Source: Citricoccus muralis (GTDB taxonomy: Bacteria; Actinomycetota; Actinomycetes; Actinomycetales; Micrococcaceae). From it: a stretch of 64,000 bases of DNA. Below are positions 8,014 to 28,100 of this stretch, in pieces. The notes beneath the pieces were generated by a model. The model saw only the letters and a program-made list of their open reading frames with translations. It did no database searches and was not told the DNA's origin. The position numbers and the translations under genes are program-made. The stretch is taken from assembly GCF_029637705.1 (NCBI RefSeq), contig NZ_CP121252.1, forward strand, positions 2,108,001 to 2,172,000, in the 5' to 3' direction. Within the stretch, counting starts at the first letter, position 1, and each line of letters starts with the position of its first letter.

Positions 8014-8087
8014 TTGCGGGGGCAAGATTTGAACTTGCGACCTCCGGGTTATGAGCCCGGCGAGCTACCGAACTGCTCCACCCCGCG
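8014..8087 (-). tRNA. tRNA-fMet (CAT), initiator
   Basis: The reverse strand folds as a 74-base cloverleaf with anticodon CAT inside GGGCTCATAACCC. The three G-C pairs next to the anticodon loop and the C1-A72 mismatch (CGCGGGG against CCCCGCA) are the marks of an initiator rather than an elongator methionine tRNA. No CCA is encoded. Confidence 0.93.
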
Positions 8088-18104: not shown

Positions 18105-19127
18105 TCAGTTCTGCAGGGTGCGCGGCTCGGGAAGAGAACCACCGTACCAGTGCTCCAACAGCGCCCGGGCGATCGAGCTGGCCCCGGGGATCATGACGTC
18201 GCCGCGCTCAACCTGCTCGCGCAGCTCATCGCGGGTAAACCATCGGACGGTGAGTACCTCTTCGCCGTCGGAGACGGCTTCTTCGGGGGCGTCGGTGCGG
18301 GCAGTGAAGCCCAGCATCAGCGACTGTGGGAACGGCCAGGGCTGGGATCCGAGGTAGCGCGGGGAATGCACGCGCAGGTGCGATTCCTCGTAGATTTCGC
18401 GCTTCACCGCTGCTTCCAGGGATTCGCCCGGTTCGACGAAACCAGCCAGGGTAGAGAACCGGGTGGGACCCCACTGGGCGTTGTTGCCAAGCAGGATCCG
18501 GTCGTCAGGATCGGTGATGGCGACAATGATTGCCGGGTCGGTGCGCGGGAAGTGCTCCGAGTTGTCCTGCGGGCAGACCCGGACCCATCCGGAGGTGGTG
18601 ATCCGGGTGGCTGCTCCACAGCGGGGGCAGAAACCGTTGCGGGCGTGCCAGTTGGCCACCGCGACCGCTTCGACGAAGATGCCGGCGTCGCGTGAGGACA
18701 GGGCGGCGGCGACGTCGCGCACGCCCACCCAGGTGATTTTTTCGGCGTCGATGGGAGTGCCAGCCACCTCGGGGCGGTCCAGGATGGGGGCCGGGCCTGA
18801 AGAATCGGCGATGAGCAGCACCAGCTCCGCTGCACTGTTTCCACCGGTACTGCCGTTGCGGTGTTCCAGGGAGCGTCCCAAGTACACGCTGGTTTCGTGA
18901 CGATCGGCCGGCGCCAGGTCATCGTCGGGCACCGGGCACAGCACCAACTGTCCGTTGTACACCGGGGCCAGTCCCCCGTGTAGCCAGAGCACCCGGGTCT
19001 CGGGGCGGGACCAGATGCTGGGCAGCCAGGACTCTTGGGCGCGCACCTCACAGCCACGGTCGACATCCTCACGGGCCAGGGGCAATCGTCCCAGGGGCGG
19101 AAAGCTCTCGGTGCGGTGCGTCGTCAT
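18105..19127 (-). CDS. nudC: NAD(+) diphosphatase / NAD-RNA decapping enzyme (NudC-type)
   Basis: A 340-residue Nudix hydrolase that splits NAD(H) into NMN(H) and AMP and, in other bacteria, removes NAD caps from RNA. The zinc-ribbon half carries CPRCG (near 205) and a single later Cys (VCPQDNSEHFPRTDP). The Nudix box is GFVEPGESLEAAVKREIYEE followed by S, and SQPWPFPQSLM is the NADH-pyrophosphatase hallmark after the box. ATG at 19127 (MTTHRTESFPP); the longer open frame upstream enters the promoter of the divergent phosphotransferase. It precedes uvrD2 with a 34-base gap. Confidence 0.93.
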   Translation of the reverse strand: MTTHRTESFPPLGRLPLAREDVDRGCEVRAQESWLPSIWSRPETRVLWLHGGLAPVYNGQLVLCPVPDDDLAPADRHETSVYLGRSLEHRNGSTGGNSAAELVLLIADSSGPAPILDRPEVAGTPIDAEKITWVGVRDVAAALSSRDAGIFVEAVAVANWHARNGFCPRCGAATRITTSGWVRVCPQDNSEHFPRTDPAIIVAITDPDDRILLGNNAQWGPTRFSTLAGFVEPGESLEAAVKREIYEESHLRVHSPRYLGSQPWPFPQSLMLGFTARTDAPEEAVSDGEEVLTVRWFTRDELREQVERGDVMIPGASSIARALLEHWYGGSLPEPRTLQN

Positions 19128-19248
19128 GATTCCACCGTACTCCCTGCGCCTCCAGCGCACCTCAAGCGAGCATGCGGGCTGTGTACATTTTCGGACTCGC
19201 CGGGCCCGACCGGCTCGGCACCGTGTGGATGTCGCTACGGTTAAGCCT

Positions 19249-20532
19249 GTGAATCGATCGCCCATGGAACTCGCCGCATTGGCCAGCGCAGCCGTGCCCG
19301 GACTGTCTCCCGTTTCGGTGGCAGCCGCACCGGATAGCGCCCGGGACTTCGACTCTGCAGTCGTCACGGATCGTGAGGATCAGCGCTGGCGCATCCGCTC
19401 GCCGAAGCATGAGAAAGCCGCATTCCGGCTCGAGACCGAGCTGCAGGTGCTCTCCGGTTTCACCCCGGCGATCCGTGCGAAACTGCCGTTCCGCGCCCCC
19501 TCAGTGGCAGGTGCGGTGCAGCTGGATGGGTTGCGCACCTTCGTGTATCACAACATGCCCGGGTCGGAGATCGGTCTCGACGGGCTGGTGGCCGCTTCTG
19601 AGCCACTACCCCAGGACATCGGCCGCGTCACGGCCGCGATTCATCAACTCTCCGATGCAGTCGTGGAAGCAGCGAATCTTCCCGTCTACACCGCCGATGA
19701 GTTCCGCTCGCGCAGGTTGAATGAGCTCGACCAGGCGGCCCTCACGGGTGCGATCCCCAGTGTGCTGTTGCGCCGCTGGGAGGCCGCACTGGAGGAGACG
19801 TCGCTGTGGAGTTTCCAGCCGCGGGTGGTGCACGGTGACCTGCATGAGGACAATCTGTTGGTGGAACGTGGTCGTGTGGTGGGCGTGACCGGCTGGACGG
19901 ACCTGCATTGGGGTGACCCCGCCACCGATTTCGCGTGGTTGGCCTCGGTGGAGGAGCCGGCTTTCGTGGAGAAGATCATCGAGTCCTACCGCTCGCACAT
20001 GAAGGGCGGAACAGACGAGAATCTGATGCGCCGGGCCTCGCTGGCCGCGGAGTTCGCGTTGGCTCAGTGGATGGTGCAGGGTATCTCCACCCACGACGAG
20101 CAAATCCAGGGTGAAGCAGCAACCCTGCTCGAGGAGCTGGCCGAGGATGTGCGCGACCACGGTGGTCAGGACATTGGAGTCGCTTCCCACCCGGCTCCAA
20201 CTCCCGTACCCGAACCAGAACCCACTCCGGACCCGGAGTCCAAAGCCCCCGAAACGGAGAAGGAGCCGGACGACGCTCCCAAGGTTGCCCTCGTCGAGGA
20301 CGCTCCAGAAGTACCTGAAGAGCCTGAAGAACCTGCAGACGAGGACGTCACCGAGGAAGACGACGATGGCGCCGTCATCACGGACTCCGGTGCCCGACCC
20401 GCGGATGAACCAGAGCAGCCCGCCGAGCCCGACAATGCGGTGAATCTGGAGACCGCACCTATCCCGCTGGAGCAGCTGCGCGCGATGCACCAGCGTCGGG
20501 ACAACGAGGAGCACGACTCCCGGGAATCCTGA
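19249..20532 (+). CDS. Aminoglycoside/macrolide phosphotransferase-like protein with acidic tail
   Basis: A 427-residue protein. The kinase-like domain (1-300) has the catalytic loop VVHGDLHEDNLL (HGDLHEDN). The position of the usual metal-binding Asp (normally -IDW-) is Gly here, in VTGWTDLHWGDPATDF, with an Asp three residues later. Residues about 305-427 are low-complexity Pro/Glu/Asp (PEPEPTPDPES and similar), probably disordered. It may be a small-molecule kinase or an inactive kinase-fold protein; resistance is not shown. The GTG at 19249 (MNRSPMELAALAS) is the start that fits the domain; upstream extension overlaps nudC. Confidence 0.8.
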   Translation: MNRSPMELAALASAAVPGLSPVSVAAAPDSARDFDSAVVTDREDQRWRIRSPKHEKAAFRLETELQVLSGFTPAIRAKLPFRAPSVAGAVQLDGLRTFVYHNMPGSEIGLDGLVAASEPLPQDIGRVTAAIHQLSDAVVEAANLPVYTADEFRSRRLNELDQAALTGAIPSVLLRRWEAALEETSLWSFQPRVVHGDLHEDNLLVERGRVVGVTGWTDLHWGDPATDFAWLASVEEPAFVEKIIESYRSHMKGGTDENLMRRASLAAEFALAQWMVQGISTHDEQIQGEAATLLEELAEDVRDHGGQDIGVASHPAPTPVPEPEPTPDPESKAPETEKEPDDAPKVALVEDAPEVPEEPEEPADEDVTEEDDDGAVITDSGARPADEPEQPAEPDNAVNLETAPIPLEQLRAMHQRRDNEEHDSRES

Positions 20533-20548
20533 GACCCTGTAACGGGAC

Positions 20549-21736
20549 CTAGGCGTTCGGCGCCACAGCGGTTCCGGCACCTCGGCGTCTGATCATCGGG
20601 ATCGTGACCCCTGCGCCAGCGTGCTCCGCGCCAACCGCGGGCACCTGTTTGCCACACGGCAGTGTGCTCACCGAGGTGTCTGGTGTTTTCGCGACACCGA
20701 GGGCTGCCTGGTGTGCTGCGCGGTAAGCCTTGAGCCGATCGCGCAGTTGCCGAGCATTGTCGGTGCCGACGATCTCGAATCCGCCGTCGACGATCATGTC
20801 GAGATCTTCTTCAGCGGCCTGCCCTTCCGAGGTGAGGTAGTCACCGAGAAACAGCGAGTTGGCGACATGCAACGACATCGGTTGCAGGGAGCGCAGGTGC
20901 ATTTCGCGGCCACCAGCGATGCGGAGTTCCCGGTCCGGGCACAGAAATCGCACCGCGCACAGGATCCGAAGGCAGTGCTGCGGAGTCAGCGTGTAGGTGC
21001 CCTCCAGTGGGGTGCCGTCGAAAGGGATCAGGAAGTTGACCGGAATCGAGTCCGAGTCCACCTGCTGCAGGGATTCGATCGCCTCAATGATCTGTTCATT
21101 GGTTTCGCCCATGCCGACGATGAGACCCGAGCAGGGTGACATACCTGCTGCGCGTGCCTGGTCGACGGTGTCGACGCGGTCGGCGAACGTGTGTGTCGAG
21201 CAGATATCGGAGTAATGGGATTCAGCGGTGTTGAGGTTGTGGTTGTACGCATCCACCCCCGCTTCTTTCAGGCGATGCGCCTGGCCTTCTTTCAAGAAGC
21301 CGAGGCACGCGCAGACCTCCACCGACGGAGTGGCCGCCTTGATCTCCTCAACCATCCCCGACACCCGCTCGACGTCACGATTCGAGGGCCCGCGTCCGGA
21401 GGCAACGAGGCAGACGCGGGAGGCACCTCCCGCCAGACCGAATTCTGCCTGGCGCTTGGCCTCATCGCGCGGTAGCCACGGGTACTTGAGGATCTCTGCT
21501 TCCGACCCCAGCCGCTGCGAGCAATAGCTGCAGTCCTCCGGACACAGCCCTGATTTGAGATTCACGAGGTAGTTGATCTTGACCAGGTTGCCAAAGTGGG
21601 CACGGCGCAACCTGGCCGCGGCCGCGACCACGGCGGTCAGGTCTTCGTCCGGGGACGACAGGATCTCCAGGGCATCAGAAGCGGTTGCGGGGTTCCCGGC
21701 AAGCACCTGTCCTGCGAGGGAGTAGTAACGGTCCAT
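20549..21736 (-). CDS. bioB: Biotin synthase (radical SAM)
   Basis: A 395-residue enzyme that inserts sulfur into dethiobiotin. The radical-SAM cluster motif CPEDCSYC is near residue 55. The 2Fe-2S ligand regions are VCLVASGRG and VCACLGFL, and VDAYNHNLNT marks the substrate site. The C-terminal 45 residues (from KTPDTSVSTL) go beyond the usual BioB length and look unstructured. I prefer the ATG at 21736, because the alternative GTG at 21754 lies inside the operator palindrome. No other biotin gene is in the window. It sits 39 bases after adnB on the same strand. Confidence 0.95.
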   Translation of the reverse strand: MDRYYSLAGQVLAGNPATASDALEILSSPDEDLTAVVAAAARLRRAHFGNLVKINYLVNLKSGLCPEDCSYCSQRLGSEAEILKYPWLPRDEAKRQAEFGLAGGASRVCLVASGRGPSNRDVERVSGMVEEIKAATPSVEVCACLGFLKEGQAHRLKEAGVDAYNHNLNTAESHYSDICSTHTFADRVDTVDQARAAGMSPCSGLIVGMGETNEQIIEAIESLQQVDSDSIPVNFLIPFDGTPLEGTYTLTPQHCLRILCAVRFLCPDRELRIAGGREMHLRSLQPMSLHVANSLFLGDYLTSEGQAAEEDLDMIVDGGFEIVGTDNARQLRDRLKAYRAAHQAALGVAKTPDTSVSTLPCGKQVPAVGAEHAGAGVTIPMIRRRGAGTAVAPNA

Positions 21737-21747
21737 TCCGTCATTAT

Positions 21748-21760
21748 TGAACACTGTTCA
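21748..21760. promoter_or_regulatory. Perfect palindrome TGAACACTGTTCA upstream of bioB (BioQ-like operator)
   Basis: The 13-base palindrome TGAAC-N3-GTTCA ends 12 bases upstream of the bioB ATG, between adnB and bioB. The TetR-family biotin repressor BioQ of corynebacteria is known to bind TGAAC-N3-GTTAC sites. On the bioB strand it is followed by CAATAAT, a possible -10 box, so a bound repressor would cover the promoter. The palindrome is observed; identity as a BioQ site is inferred. Confidence 0.65.
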
Positions 21761-21775
21761 GGAAATGAAAAGGCC

Positions 21776-24700
21776 CTACGCCAACGCCTCAGCGAGGATC
21801 CGTTCCAGTTCGGCCTCATCGGCCAGGTGGTGCGGGGTTCGTTCCACGCCGTGGGCGATGTAGACGAAGCGTCCGGTGATGTTCTCCAGCGGAATGTGGT
21901 GTAGCCGCGACCAGGCTAGCCGGTACACGGCGAGCTGGAGCCCCTTGAGCTGCAGGTCGTCTTCGGTGCGCGGTACTTGTCCGGTTTTCCAATCCACCAG
22001 TTCCCATTGCGCGTCCGGGTCAAACTCCTGGGAGGGGTCTCCCCCGGTGCGAAAGATCGCGTCCACGCGGCCGCGCAGGGTGATCCCGCCGACTGTGGTT
22101 TCTACGGCGGCCTCTACCAGCGCCGGTGGGGTGTCGGCCCAGCGGGTGGCTTTGAATTTTTCGCGCAGGTCGGTGACCCCGAGTGCTGCGTCAACGTCGT
22201 CGTCGACCGCCAGGTGGGGATCTTCAAAGTCCAGCATGCCGGTGACGCCGGGGCGGATGGTGGCGTAGTGCTCCTCGATCCATGAGTGGAACACGGTGCC
22301 GGCGCGGGCTGCGGGTTTGGGCTGGCGCGGCATGGGGCGGCGCAGCTGGCGGGCCACCGCGGTGGGATCGTCGGCGAGTTCCACGAAGGTGGAGGTGCTC
22401 ACGTGCGAGGGCAGCACGATGGAGGTGTCTGCAGGTCGACCGCGCTGGGCGTGACGGCGGTCCAGCACCCAGCTGACCCGCTGGGCCAGGTCGGGTGTGC
22501 TGATCATGCTCAGGTCGGCCTCGGCATCCCGTACTCGTTGGGCGGCGGCTTCCAATCCGGCACGGCGGGGCCGCAGGCGCGAGGGCATGTCCGTGGCGCC
22601 GTCGGTGGAGAGGTTCGCGGATTCCTGCAGGTTCAGCACGGTGGGCCCGTCGAGCGGATCGTAGGGCCACTCGGCAGCGAGGGTGCGTTCGGCGGTGGGG
22701 TTCGATTCGCCGATCTCTTCTTCGGTGGCCCAGGTGCCCACGGTGACGGCGGGGTGGTCCTGCATTTCGGTCAAGAATACCGAGGGCTCCCCCTGGGTTT
22801 TGGCGGTGCCCTTCCAAGCGGCACCAGAGATCCAGAGCAGGTCCTTGGCTCGGGTGTAGGCCACGTACGCCAGTCGGCGTTCCTCGGTGGCGACGTGGGC
22901 GTCGACCGCCATGGTGAAGTCGGGTCCGTGTTCTTCAACCTGTTTCTCAGAGCGTCCGAGGGCAGCTTCGGCCCAGTCGTTGAGGGTGTCCCAGCCGTCC
23001 CGGCGCCACTGCGGGAGGCTGGCGGCGTCGCCGCGCAGATCCCAGGGCAGGGAGCCTTGGGTTTCTTTGGTCCAGAGGTCTTTCTTTTCGGACGGGAAGG
23101 TCTTCCGGGCGAGCCCGGGGACCACCACGACGTCCCATTCCAGTCCTTTAGAGGCGTGGGCAGTGAGCAGCTGGACCGCGTCCGCGGTGGGTTCGGCGGG
23201 GACGGCGTTGAGTCCGTCCTCTTCTTCTTCGGCGACGTCGAGCCAAGTAAGGAAGGCGAGCAGTTCGTCACCGGCGGTGGGGTCGGCGCTGGCTGCGAAG
23301 CTTTCGGCGGCTTCGATGAAGGCGTCGAGGTTGCGGCGAGCAGTGGGCATGGTGCTGCCGGGGTGCGAGAGAACCTCTTGGCCGAGCCCGGTGGAGCGCT
23401 CGACGTAGCGGATCAGCTCCGGCAGCGGCAGGTGCAGCTGGGTAGAGAGCCGGGTGATCTCGGTGCCCAGTTGGGTGAGGCGGCGGTGGCCTTCTGCGCT
23501 GAAATGGCGCCCAGACGGTGACGTCCAGTTCGCTGGCGGCAGGCTGAGAAGGGCTTCGATGAGGGAGGAGGAGTCGACATCCTCGGGGGCTTGTTCGCGC
23601 TGGGCGCCGGGGCGGTTTCGGGCGAGACCGCGGGCGTGTTCCTGAAGCACCCAGATGTCAGCCGGGCCGATACGCCAGCGCGCGTTGGTGATGACGCGTA
23701 TGAGGGAGTCCGAGCGGGTGGGGTCGGCGAGCACGTTGAGCAGGGCGTTCAGTTCGATCACTTCGGGGGTGCGCAGCAGGCCGGAGAGCCCGATGATTTC
23801 GTAGGGCACGCCGGCGGCGTCGAGTGCTTCGGCAATCGGGGTGAACTGAGACCGGGCACGGCACAGCACCGCCCCAGTGCGTCCGGAGTCGGCGGGGAGT
23901 TGTTCGGCGAACATTTCGGCGATGCGGGCGGCTTCCGTGGCGGTGTCGGTGAACCAGTGGGCCACGATCTCGCCCGCGGGCGCCCCAAGGCGTGGTTTCA
24001 GCTCGGCGATCTGCTGGGTGGTGCCGGCGGAGCGCAGGGGGGCGGCGATGGCGTTGGCGCCGTCGAGGATGTGCTCGGCGTTGCGCCAGGCGGTGGTGAG
24101 TTGGGCGGTGGCGGCAGGGTGGCGGGCGCCGTCGTCGTCGAGGGTGGGGAACCGTTCGGGGAAGCTGAACAGCTGGCCGGCGGAGGCGCCGCGGAAACCG
24201 TAGATCGACTGGTTGGGGTCGCCCACCGCGGTGACCGGGTGGCCGATTCCTGTGCCGGAGGAGGAGCCGAAAAGCCCGGAGAAGAGTTCCATTTGGGCGT
24301 GGGAGGTGTCTTGGAATTCGTCGAGGAGCACCACCTTGTAGCGTTGGCGCTCCACGATGCCGACCTCGGGAATCTCGGAGGCGATGCGGGCGGCATGGGC
24401 CACGAGGTCGCCGTAGTCCATCACGGATTCGGCGCGTTTGAGGTCGCTGTAGGCGGTGACCATGTCGGCCAGCACGGTACGCATCTGGATCATCTCGACG
24501 ATGCCCCGGGTTTTGGCGTTGCCGCGGCCTCGTTTCAGTGGCAGCGCGTCGGCTTCGGCTTGCAGCCCGGCCAAGTATTCCTTCACCCGTTCGGGGGCGA
24601 CGAGGTGTTCGGCGCAGTCACCGGCAAGTTGGCGCAGCCGTTTGACCAGGGTGGCGGCGCGGGCGCTGGTAAAGCTGAGGTCGCCGTGGAATTCACGGAC

Positions 24701-25180
24701 CACGCGGGAGGCGAGCTGGAAGGACTGGGCCTCCCCGATCAGCCGGGCATCGGGTTCGACCCCGATGCGTAGCCCGTGGTCGGCGACCAGGGCGTTGGCG
24801 TAGGAGTGGTAGGTGGACACGCTGGCTCGGCCGATATCGGCGGGGTCCAAGGGGACGTCAAGTTGTTCGTCGGCGGCGAGTCGGGCGATGGCGGCATTGA
24901 TGCGCTGAGCCAGTTCGCCAGCAGCTTTGCGGGTGAAAGTGACGCCGAGGATCTCTTCGGGACGGACGAATCCGTTAGCCACCAGCCACACCACCCGGTC
25001 GGTCATGGTGTGGGTTTTGCCGGAGCCGGCCCCGGCCACCACGAGTAGTGGTTCCGGGCCGGATTCGATGATGCGCTGCTGCTCGTCGGTGGGATAGTGC
25101 CGCTCGTCGGCGGGGCGTTGGGCTTGGAGGGCGTCCACCAGGTCGCGGGCGGAGTAGCGGACCGTGCCCCAGGTGCTCAT
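21776..25180 (-). CDS. adnB: AdnB-like helicase-nuclease subunit
   Basis: A 1134-residue protein. The N-terminal UvrD-like motor has an intact Walker A AGAGSGKTHTMTD, Walker B VVLLDEFQDTSHAQ, motif III GDPNQSIYGFRG, motif V LTAHASKGLEWDVVVV and motif VI YVAYTRAKDLLW. The C-terminal RecB-type nuclease has FHSWIEEH, GRVDAIF, WELVDWKTG and QLAVYRLAW. AdnAB resects double-strand breaks in actinobacteria. The ATG at 25180 overlaps the adnA stop as ATGA, so translation is coupled; an ATG at 25189 is the alternative. No HNH or other extra domain is seen. Confidence 0.92.
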   Translation of the reverse strand: MSTWGTVRYSARDLVDALQAQRPADERHYPTDEQQRIIESGPEPLLVVAGAGSGKTHTMTDRVVWLVANGFVRPEEILGVTFTRKAAGELAQRINAAIARLAADEQLDVPLDPADIGRASVSTYHSYANALVADHGLRIGVEPDARLIGEAQSFQLASRVVREFHGDLSFTSARAATLVKRLRQLAGDCAEHLVAPERVKEYLAGLQAEADALPLKRGRGNAKTRGIVEMIQMRTVLADMVTAYSDLKRAESVMDYGDLVAHAARIASEIPEVGIVERQRYKVVLLDEFQDTSHAQMELFSGLFGSSSGTGIGHPVTAVGDPNQSIYGFRGASAGQLFSFPERFPTLDDDGARHPAATAQLTTAWRNAEHILDGANAIAAPLRSAGTTQQIAELKPRLGAPAGEIVAHWFTDTATEAARIAEMFAEQLPADSGRTGAVLCRARSQFTPIAEALDAAGVPYEIIGLSGLLRTPEVIELNALLNVLADPTRSDSLIRVITNARWRIGPADIWVLQEHARGLARNRPGAQREQAPEDVDSSSLIEALLSLPPANWTSPSGRHFSAEGHRRLTQLGTEITRLSTQLHLPLPELIRYVERSTGLGQEVLSHPGSTMPTARRNLDAFIEAAESFAASADPTAGDELLAFLTWLDVAEEEEDGLNAVPAEPTADAVQLLTAHASKGLEWDVVVVPGLARKTFPSEKKDLWTKETQGSLPWDLRGDAASLPQWRRDGWDTLNDWAEAALGRSEKQVEEHGPDFTMAVDAHVATEERRLAYVAYTRAKDLLWISGAAWKGTAKTQGEPSVFLTEMQDHPAVTVGTWATEEEIGESNPTAERTLAAEWPYDPLDGPTVLNLQESANLSTDGATDMPSRLRPRRAGLEAAAQRVRDAEADLSMISTPDLAQRVSWVLDRRHAQRGRPADTSIVLPSHVSTSTFVELADDPTAVARQLRRPMPRQPKPAARAGTVFHSWIEEHYATIRPGVTGMLDFEDPHLAVDDDVDAALGVTDLREKFKATRWADTPPALVEAAVETTVGGITLRGRVDAIFRTGGDPSQEFDPDAQWELVDWKTGQVPRTEDDLQLKGLQLAVYRLAWSRLHHIPLENITGRFVYIAHGVERTPHHLADEAELERILAEALA

Positions 25181-28100
25181 CGGTTCCATACGGTGATCTG
25201 CTTCCCTTCATCGCACAGCGGGCAAAGGGCGCCGAGTCGGCACTCTTTGCCGGGCCGGTGGACGGCCAGGTAGGTGGGCCCGGCGACCAATCCAGCGGCC
25301 TGGACGAGTTGGTTTTCGGCCCAGGTGTCGTCGTCGGTGACGGCGGCCTGTTCCTGGATTTTCAGGTTTTTGGTGGTGCTGCCCAGCTGCACGAGAGCTG
25401 CTCCGGCGGGCCGGCGGCGGTGCGGGAGGTCCATGTCGACGTCGTCGTCGAGCCCGGTCAGGGCTTGCGAGCGCAGCATGGTCTGGTAGACGCCGAGCTG
25501 CGGCAGCTGTTCCAGTTCCTTCGCGGTGGGGGGATTGGTGCCGGTCTTGAGGTCCACCACGTAAGAGCGTCCGTCGGCGGTGGCTTCGAGGCGGTCGATC
25601 GAGCCGCGGAGGACGAGGTGGACGTCGCCGATCCTCTCGTCAACGGTGACTCGTTGCTCGGTGGCGACGAGGGTGCGCCCTTGCTGGCGCATGTCGCGCA
25701 CGTAGTCGGCAAAGAAGCCGAGCATGCTCTCGCAGCGGACTCGCAGCTGGTCGGCCTCCCACCCGGGGTCGAGCCCGAGGGAGGCGAAGCGGGCGTCGAG
25801 GGCGTTGATCAGTTCGTCCAGGGTTCCTGCGGGGTGGTCTTCGGCGATGGAGTGGATCAGGGTGCCCAGGGACATGGCCAGGGTGGAGCCGCCACGCCCG
25901 CCGACCTGTTGGATGAACCACTGCAGTGGTGAGTTCAGTGCCGTTTCGACGGTGGAGGGTGAGAGGTGGATGGCGTCGTCATCCTCGACGGCGCCGGGCC
26001 CTTGGACGGGTTGTTCGGTGCTCAGCGGTGCCAGCCCCCACCAGGAGTCGGGGTCGGCGCCGGACACGGATTGTTGGGCCAGCACAGTCGCTGCGATGGC
26101 GGCGTCATTGAGCTCCGAGTCACCACCGGTTTCAAGGGTGCGGCGCAGGCTGGCAACCAAGGCGGCTTCGGTGAGCGGGTCGGCCACCTTGGTGAGTTCC
26201 CGAGCGGCGGTGTGGTCGTTCCAGGGGCTGACCACGTCGAGGAAGGGGCTGGGCTGGGCGTCTTCGGTGTTCACCGCGATGCCGATGAGCCGGTGCCGGG
26301 CCCGGCTGAGGGCTGCGCAGAAGGTGCGCATCTCGTCGGCGCGGACCTCGGCCAGCTGGTCGGTGTAGGTGGTCTGCCCAGAGCGCCCGGTGACCATATC
26401 GACCAGATGCTGGGTGTGGAGCAGTTGGCCGCGCAGCCGGGTATTGGGCCAGACGCCGTCTTGGACACCAGCGAGGATCACCACGTCCCATTCTTGCCCC
26501 GCGGCCGAGGAGGGGGTGAGCACGGTGACGGATTCAGCGTGGACGGCACGGGTGCTCAGCGAGTCCATGGGGAGTTGCTGTTGTTCGAGGTACTCCACAA
26601 ACCCGTGGGCGCTGCGGCCGGGGAACTGGTCCACGTAGCGTTCGGCGGCTTCGAAGAGGGCGACGACGGCGTCGAGGTCACGGTCGGCACGGCGGGAGGC
26701 GACGGCGTCGGCGCTCAGGGCGTCGGCTTCCCAGCGGGCGGCGACGTCGGTGCGCACGGCGTCCCAGGCGGCCCAGAGCACGGTTTCGGCGGTGGATTCC
26801 GGCTGACCGGCAGCGCGTGCGGCGGCGGTCAGCATGCGGGCGATGCGGTGGGCACCGCGGGCGTAGTCGGGTACTGACCACTCGGGGTTGAGCGCGAGTA
26901 GGTCGTGGAAGCTTTCGGGGTCGGTGAGCAGCTGGGACAGCAGGGCCGAGGAGTTGCGGTGGTCTTCGCGATCGCGGGCGACGGCGAGCAGCCGCTGCCG
27001 CAGCCGGCGCAGGTGCAGGGCGGAGGAGCCTCCGTAGCGGCCCGTGATCAGCCAGCCGGCATGGGGTTGGATCTCCTCGGCCGGCTCGGCGTTGGGTTCG
27101 GTGAGTTCGACGAGGCGCAGCAACGGGGTGACGGCAGGTTCGCGGTTGAGCACGGTGTCGGCCATGGTGCGCCGCACGGGCACGCCTTCGGATTCCAGGA
27201 AGCGGCCGATCTCGGCGACGGCGGAGCCGGTGCGGGCGAGCACCGCGATCCGGGACAGCGGCACCTGCTCCCGGTGGTGCACATCCAGCACCTGTTGCAG
27301 GATCAGCAGGCGCTGTTGCAGTTCAGTGGCCACCCAGTGCACATCGGTCTCGGAGCATCGTTCAGCAGTGTGGATCGGCACGGCGAGGCCACGGTAGTCG
27401 GGCAGCCCCGGCACCGCCGGCAGCCGACGCGCCGCCCGCGCCCACGCTTCGTGTACGTCCGGGCGCATCCGGTAACCGGTGCGCAGCCGATGAATTCTCT
27501 CACCGCGCTGTTCTGCTGATAGGTCCCCGCTGATCAGCGCCTGCGGGTACTCCCCCACCAACTGGGGGCGGGCACCACGGAAGCCTTCCACCGTGACGTC
27601 GGGATCGGCGGTGAGCACGGCGTCACGGTCGGTGGCCAGCCGAAGGATCAGCTGATGGATCGCCGGGGTGACGTTCTGCAGGTCGTCGACGACGATGACT
27701 CCCAGGCGCGCCCGTTCCTGCTCGGCGAATTCAGGATGCTCGTCCCAGAGCCGGCACGCGGAGGTGATCAGTCCGGCCGGGTCAAAAGCGTCGGCACGGC
27801 CCAGGTCCAGCACGTCACGGTAGTCCTGCAGCAGTCGGGCCGCGGCCACCCATTCTTCGCGGTGCTGTTCTACCCCGAGGTCGCGCAGCCGCCCCGGGTC
27901 CACCCCGTATTCGCTGGTGCGGTCGATCAGCTCGCGCACCTCCCGGCGGAACCCGTCGAGACCCACGGCAGCACGCAGCGAATCCGGCCACTCGGGGCTG
28001 AAGTCCGGTTCGGCCCGGTACCCCTCGATCAGCTCGGCGATCACCCGGTCTTGCTCGGCACCCGAGAGCAACCGCGGCGACTGATTCAGGTGCGGCAGAA

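Follow-up and report, generated by a model that had tools for sequence, protein, structure and literature searches.

The window analysed in this study, a 64,000-nucleotide stretch of the Citricoccus muralis genome (C1:2108001-2172000 of the one contig of 3,129,675 bases, 3.13 Mb, that was searched), contains on its minus strand a bioB gene (20549..21736) encoding a 395-aa biotin synthase (TIGR00433, 387 bits), for which ATG 21736 is the favoured start. Its upstream neighbour on the same strand (21776..25189) encodes a UvrD-type helicase with a C-terminal PD-(D/E)XK nuclease, which we take to be AdnB-like. The description of bioB in the first-pass annotation as standing alone after a DNA-repair operon is accurate, as two UvrD/PD-(D/E)XK genes precede the lone bioB. 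An APH-family (phosphotransferase) ORF at 18955-20532 is convergent with bioB, and a tRNA gene at 8014-8087 (minus strand) is the sole Rfam match in the window.

Between the stop codon of the helicase-nuclease ORF and ATG 21736 is a gap of 39 bp, which contains a predicted BioQ-type operator (21748..21760, assigned to neither strand), where the window sequence reads exactly TGAACACTGTTCA, or TGAACAGTGTTCA in the direction of bioB. This site had been annotated as a perfect 13-base palindrome with the layout TGAAC-N3-GTTAC. The position is exact, and 12 of the 13 bases form six complementary pairs, with the central base unpaired; the layout was misread in its final two bases, the actual match being TGAAC-N3-GTTCA.

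A promoter scan of positions 21400-22100 on both strands yielded a single hit (mean of 0.1 in shuffled sequences), TTTTCA-17-AATAAT, which matches the consensus at 9 of 12 positions. In this predicted bioB promoter, the -35 hexamer TTTTCA (21766..21771, minus strand) is separated by a 17-bp spacer from the -10 hexamer AATAAT (21743..21748, minus strand). The operator occupies most of the interval between the two hexamers and overlaps the -10 hexamer by one base (21748). ATG 21736 lies six bases past the -10 hexamer, with AATAAT at -12 to -7, and this short distance predicts a leaderless mRNA. The choice of start rests on a comparison with three related bioB genes (G041, G015 and L248), the sole start of which aligns with ATG 21736; bioB is therefore probably translated from this codon on a leaderless mRNA. 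The in-frame GTG at 21754 was also considered as the bioB start; it has ATTTCC at the leaderless distance and no -10 hexamer, and we preferred ATG 21736, judging from these features. Since GTG 21754 lies inside the palindrome, the annotated placement of the site just before the bioB start holds for the favoured ATG and would fail for the GTG.

Taken alone, the statistics of the palindrome within the window are weak. A scan of both strands allowing up to two mismatches returned two matches, one per strand, both of which are the site at 21748-21760, against a chance level of 0.83 expected matches, and 23 of 100 shuffled sequences reached two. The site thus does not stand out within the window, as would be expected if it were a chance palindrome or had some role other than biotin control. 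The strength of the case for an operator derives from a second genomic copy and from conservation in relatives.

In the whole genome, the exact sequence TGAACACTGTTCA occurs at only two places, the bioB site and C1:2951285-2951297. The latter lies in the gap between bioY (PF02632 BioY, 1.2e-35) and a divergently transcribed TetR-family gene (C1:2951327-2951893, 189 aa from ATG; PF00440 TetR_N, 31.4 bits against a cut-off of 24, 1.7e-07). A weaker site with one mismatch, TGAATGGTGTTCA, is located one base beyond the exact copy, so that the common gap holds two sites, one exact and one mismatched, and the regulator's own gene is preceded by them. This operator pair, TGAACAGTGTTCA and TGAATGGTGTTCA one base apart (L002:1501-1527), is found in identical form in the equivalent bioY-tetR gap of Nesterenkonia sp. 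E16_10 (L167:2959-2985), a genome in which no bioB was found at E <= 1e-40. The first-pass annotation had proposed scanning the genome for the same palindrome before biotin genes and for a BioQ homologue. The scan recovered the second exact copy before bioY, and a TetR-family, BioQ-like gene adjoins it; no site was found before bioA, bioF or bioD, genes for which the searches gave no convincing hit. Because the only other exact copy lies between a biotin-importer gene and a BioQ-like repressor gene, we regard the palindrome, with high confidence on the strength of these comparisons, as the operator recognised by a TetR repressor of the BioQ type, whose gene lies at C1:2951327-2951893.

On the same strand, 3' of bioY, are genes for an AMP-binding ligase, a thiolase, an ABC ATPase and a CbiQ-type permease. 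The bioY operon (L003:5347-9782, corresponding to G000:C1:2946846-2951281) is, by its predicted gene content, an uptake operon of the bioYMN kind plus two extra genes, the AMP-binding ligase and the thiolase, which lie between bioY and the ABC genes. Both partner genes were also present in 7 of 80 named loci (the best 80 of 396), and the pair is reminiscent of yhfT-yhfS of Bacillus, in which yhfT is ligase-like and yhfS is thiolase-like.

To examine the conservation of the site, 500-bp upstream stretches were searched in 59 genomes, our own included. A bioB above the TIGR00433 cut-off was present in 18 of these genomes, and BioY in 58, at 61 loci in total. The exact TGAAC-N3-GTTCA site was found upstream of 14 of the 18 bioB genes and at 13 of the 61 bioY loci (absent from 48), and when one mismatch was permitted, these numbers rose to 15 and 20, respectively. 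The same treatment of 59 other half-site orderings gave sums, derived from means, of 1 (bioB) and 0 (bioY) for exact sites and 6 and 15 with one mismatch. The three bioB genes lacking any site (G005, G008 and G047) share only 36-38% identity with that of the window. This conservation before bioB and bioY, far above that of the permuted palindromes, together with the location of the sole other exact 13-mer in the bioY-tetR gap, makes a chance origin or an unrelated role of the palindrome very improbable, even though a looser form of the motif, TGAACNNNGTTCA, has two further exact places in the genome, both inside genes (2402752 and 1428455).

The first of these (G000:C1:2402752-2402764, L005:1501-1513) lies within the gene for the biotin carboxyl carrier (TIGR00531), where it codes for part of MKLMNPVQ, presumably the biotin-attachment motif; its occurrence there is probably a coincidence. 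The second lies within a glycosyltransferase gene, and no RNA family was detected at this place. With up to one mismatch, TGAACNNNGTTCA matches 54 places in the genome versus 15 for the reversed-pattern control. In a search for a wider regulon, one-mismatch places whose core is purine-N-pyrimidine were selected from the matches listed, giving 11 in addition to the weaker site in the bioY gap. Seven of these are deep inside stop-to-stop frames of at least 222 aa, although long frames of this type are weak evidence of coding in GC-rich DNA. One further place (L007) is at the start of a 392-aa ORF, another (L255, 2670080) is near a CbiX-domain gene and a NirB-like gene, and a third (L253) adjoins a LacI-family gene. 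The place at L251:1500 (G000:C1:861679-861691), which reads TGAACATTGTTGA, lies between serC and a DtxR-family gene. These neighbours include no known biotin gene, and the selected places were provisionally treated as chance matches; a wider regulon may still exist.

The core of the motif could be refined by comparison. The regions upstream of 45 distinct bioB genes contain 50 exact sites in total, 48 of which have purine-N-pyrimidine as central triplet, the exceptions being CCC and TCT. The refined motif TGAACRNYGTTCA (TGAAC-R-N-Y-GTTCA) occurs in our genome at two places, both of which are biotin promoters. In the 59 genomes, it was found at 68 places (the sum of the forward column) in 32 genomes, against 5 places for the reversed pattern; this count is no independent test because the refinement was partly derived from the same genomes. 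Thirty-seven of the 68 places fall within the 500-bp stretches upstream of bioB (21) or bioY (16), and one more is located approximately 130 bp upstream of the G015 bioA match, so that by our count only 38 precede bioB, bioY or bioA.

Linkage of the regulator to biotin genes was also seen in related genomes. In the 30 loci obtained by the regulator search, bioY is located beside the TetR gene at our own locus and two others, and bioB at nine; at the remaining loci, no full-length copy of either gene adjoins it. Named genomes were then scanned with an alignment of 12 regulators, and the best 80 of 396 loci were analysed. The exact site was present anywhere in the locus in 50 of these 80, immediately before the TetR match in 44 of these, and 43 of the 45 loci with a bioB, bioY, bioA or bioD match contained it. 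The 30 loci of this best-80 set without an exact site include many from Propionibacteriaceae and Micrococcus. These 30 loci count against the BioQ reading, as do the 48 bioY loci that lack an exact site and the limited share (38 of 68) of refined-motif places before bioB, bioY or bioA. Thirteen of the 80 loci are from closely related Nocardia, and the 80 are therefore not independent cases.

The regulator itself shows only 30-38% identity to the eight aligned regulators other than L018, L019 and L020. However, residues A46 L47 Y48 W49 H50, K54 Q55 and L57 L58 of the DNA-binding region are invariant in all 12. The closest PDB chains are 5xs9, 5yej and 5yek (~7e-18), which are labelled just 'TetR family'; 5yej and 5yek, and possibly 5xs9, may be structures of M. 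smegmatis BioQ, and a search of the open-licence literature found no paper tying 5yej to BioQ. In a tree of 100 proteins, the regulator falls in a 10-row clade (9 bioY-linked and 1 without a bio gene found; support 100/96) whose members include Nesterenkonia sp. E16_10, Yaniella, Enteractinococcus and Auritidibacter. This clade is nested in a 17-row Micrococcaceae clade (10 bioY and 7 none, mostly Micrococcus; support 100/99), and the bioB-linked regulators of Arthrobacter-like genomes form a separate 30-row part of the tree (support 100/99). By these sequence comparisons, the regulator of the window's genome is closest to that of a Nesterenkonia.

The regulator groups mainly with bioY-linked proteins and not with the bioB-linked regulators of Arthrobacter-like genomes, which may indicate that the palindrome is bound by a TetR-type regulator of a separate family, which shares the operator with BioQ and responds to a different signal. 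Operator-like sites in two other genomes (G025:C1:1989345-1989391 and G031:C5:614751-614763) also have another TetR-like match no more than a few hundred bases away, and neither stands in front of a bioB or bioY identified in those genomes; these matches may represent paralogous regulators sharing the same operator. However, the invariance of the DNA-binding-region residues in the 12 aligned regulators, and the grouping in the tree of our regulator with bioB- and bioY-adjacent regulators of several families, render a separate family with another signal unlikely, and assignment to BioQ is the preferred reading.

A biotin ligase that itself represses bioB at the palindrome, as in BirA-type control, was also considered. 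The genome has a single biotin ligase hit, which could in principle serve this role. However, this protein of 311 aa matches PF03099 from residue 12 and PF02237 and nothing else in Pfam; it starts almost directly with the ligase domain, and no HTH or other DNA-binding domain of the sort that marks a BirA-type repressor was detected by Pfam. BirA-type control is therefore unlikely, and we consider it the least probable of the alternatives. The first-pass preference for TetR-type (BioQ) over BirA-type biotin control is thus borne out by the second exact copy at the bioY-tetR gap, the BioQ-like gene and the ligase without an HTH.

In the whole genome, the searches for bioA, bioF and bioD returned no convincing match. 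The best bioA hit (306.8 bits) is below the cut-off of 405 and resembles secondary hits of G019 and G022, which also have a hit above the cut-off. The best bioF hit reached 30.3 bits; because the bioF cut-off was passed by none of the 59 genomes, even where a bioF-like gene lies beside bioA, the absence of bioF rests on these 30 bits versus the 288-366 bits of the bioF-like genes in the 12 bioA genomes. The best bioD hit (21.8 bits) is in a 707-aa frame. Therefore, bioB seems to be the sole biotin-ring gene of the genome, and an above-cut-off bioA is also missing from five others of the 18 bioB genomes (G000, our own, together with G007, G016, G023, G024 and G035). In view of the lack of convincing hits for bioA, bioF and bioD, the regulon is probably a salvage set consisting of bioB and the bioY operon, in which BioY would provide import and BioB would convert scavenged dethiobiotin to biotin.

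We propose that, when biotin or a signal derived from biotin is plentiful, a BioQ dimer would occupy the interval between the -35 and -10 hexamers at bioB and block RNA polymerase, and would repress its own gene and the bioY operon likewise. Under biotin scarcity, BioQ would release the DNA. We infer the direction of regulation and the effector by analogy, both being carried over from published BioQ work.

Comparison of bioB genes suggested a further arrangement of the operator. An exact site is present within 420 bp upstream in 38 of the 45 distinct bioB genes, a sample that is biased because many of these genes were found through the regulator. Nineteen bioB genes were flagged as having an in-frame NTG at the site centre, from which 13 with an RTG in a site near the gene were picked. 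The other six (the window's own L050, L030, L034, L203, L245 and L250) were left out because of a CTG centre, a distant site or a later ATG. In seven of the 13 (L021, L035, L094, L234, L243, L247 and L248), there is no other in-frame ATG, GTG or TTG from the site to the aligned BioB domain, and the TGA of the operator forms an in-frame stop just upstream. In every one of the 13, the hexamer from -12 to -7 relative to the RTG fits nAnnnT, a pattern shown by 123 of 3573 background hexamers, and all have a -35 sequence with at least 4 of 6 matches to TTGACA at the best of spacings 16-18, the spacing being 17 in 11 of them. The same promoter check gave results for four of the six genes left out: nAnnnT is missing from positions -12 to -7 in L203, in L034 and before our own GTG, and L245 has C rather than A at the second position. 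Three genes (G041, G015 and L248) carry a pair of operators spaced 18 bp apart, of which one lies in the spacer and the other on the start codon. In the window's bioB, only the spacer operator is present, suggesting that the start-codon operator was lost in this lineage.

Based on these features, we favour, with moderate confidence, the following scenario. In a group of Micrococcales, the BioQ operator would be placed around the bioB start codon, with TGA-ACR-RTG-TTC-A in frame, and coupled to a leaderless promoter of the form TTGACA-like/17/nAnnnT/6/RTG, so that one 13-base word would serve as dyad, transcription start, initiation codon, upstream-frame stop and the codons for the first residues of BioB, Met-Phe. 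The window's bioB would have kept the promoter and the upstream operator without the start-codon operator, while its regulon shrank to uptake and the last synthetic step.

The main result is in itself ordinary, a known type of regulator in one more lineage. It adds to the known range of BioQ-type biotin control a Micrococcaceae genome that seemingly keeps only the last gene of biotin synthesis, and it provides a clear two-operon regulon open to testing. The start-codon-centred operators of the relatives are the more unusual part of our findings and would represent compact overlapping codes for operator, transcription start and initiation codon. A search of the open-licence literature found no paper on BioQ with Arthrobacter, although absence from that literature says little.

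BioQ and its motif have already been published for other actinobacteria, and the case of the window is one more example. In PMC11089781 and PMC9302846, BioQ is presented as a regulator of biotin in actinomycetes and mycobacteria. According to the relevant sections of PMC3398298, 11 of 27 actinobacterial genomes were predicted to encode a TetR-type BioQ, whose gene clusters with bioB in several genera and whose predicted sites read TGAAC-N3-GTTCA; the regulon is known from Corynebacterium glutamicum and Mycobacterium smegmatis and, by prediction, from Nocardia, Rhodococcus and Propionibacterium. The system described here resembles this regulon, as those sections present it, in its TetR-family gene, in the TGAAC-N3-GTTCA sites before bio genes and in its ligase, BirA of C. 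glutamicum being monofunctional (PMC3398298). It differs in that the regulator adjoins bioY, bioB is alone elsewhere, convincing bioA, bioF and bioD are lacking, and the bioY operon carries the AMP-ligase and thiolase genes. As in the control of bioY-yhfS-yhfT by BirA in Bacillus subtilis, outlined in part of PMC11089781, a single biotin regulator would govern BioY here together with two genes downstream of it. In contrast to our TetR-type system, in which no HTH was detected in the ligase, the regulator there is the bifunctional ligase BirA, and the partner genes are likened by description. Finally, AcuR of Rhodobacter sphaeroides, in the account given in excerpts of PMC3017554, is also a TetR repressor with an inverted repeat over the promoter of an mRNA that begins at the start codon. 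However, acrylate is the signal in that system, the operator sequence is different, and the regulator is encoded by the first, leaderless gene; the leaderless start was shown for the AcuR operon (PMC3017554), whereas that of bioB is a prediction.
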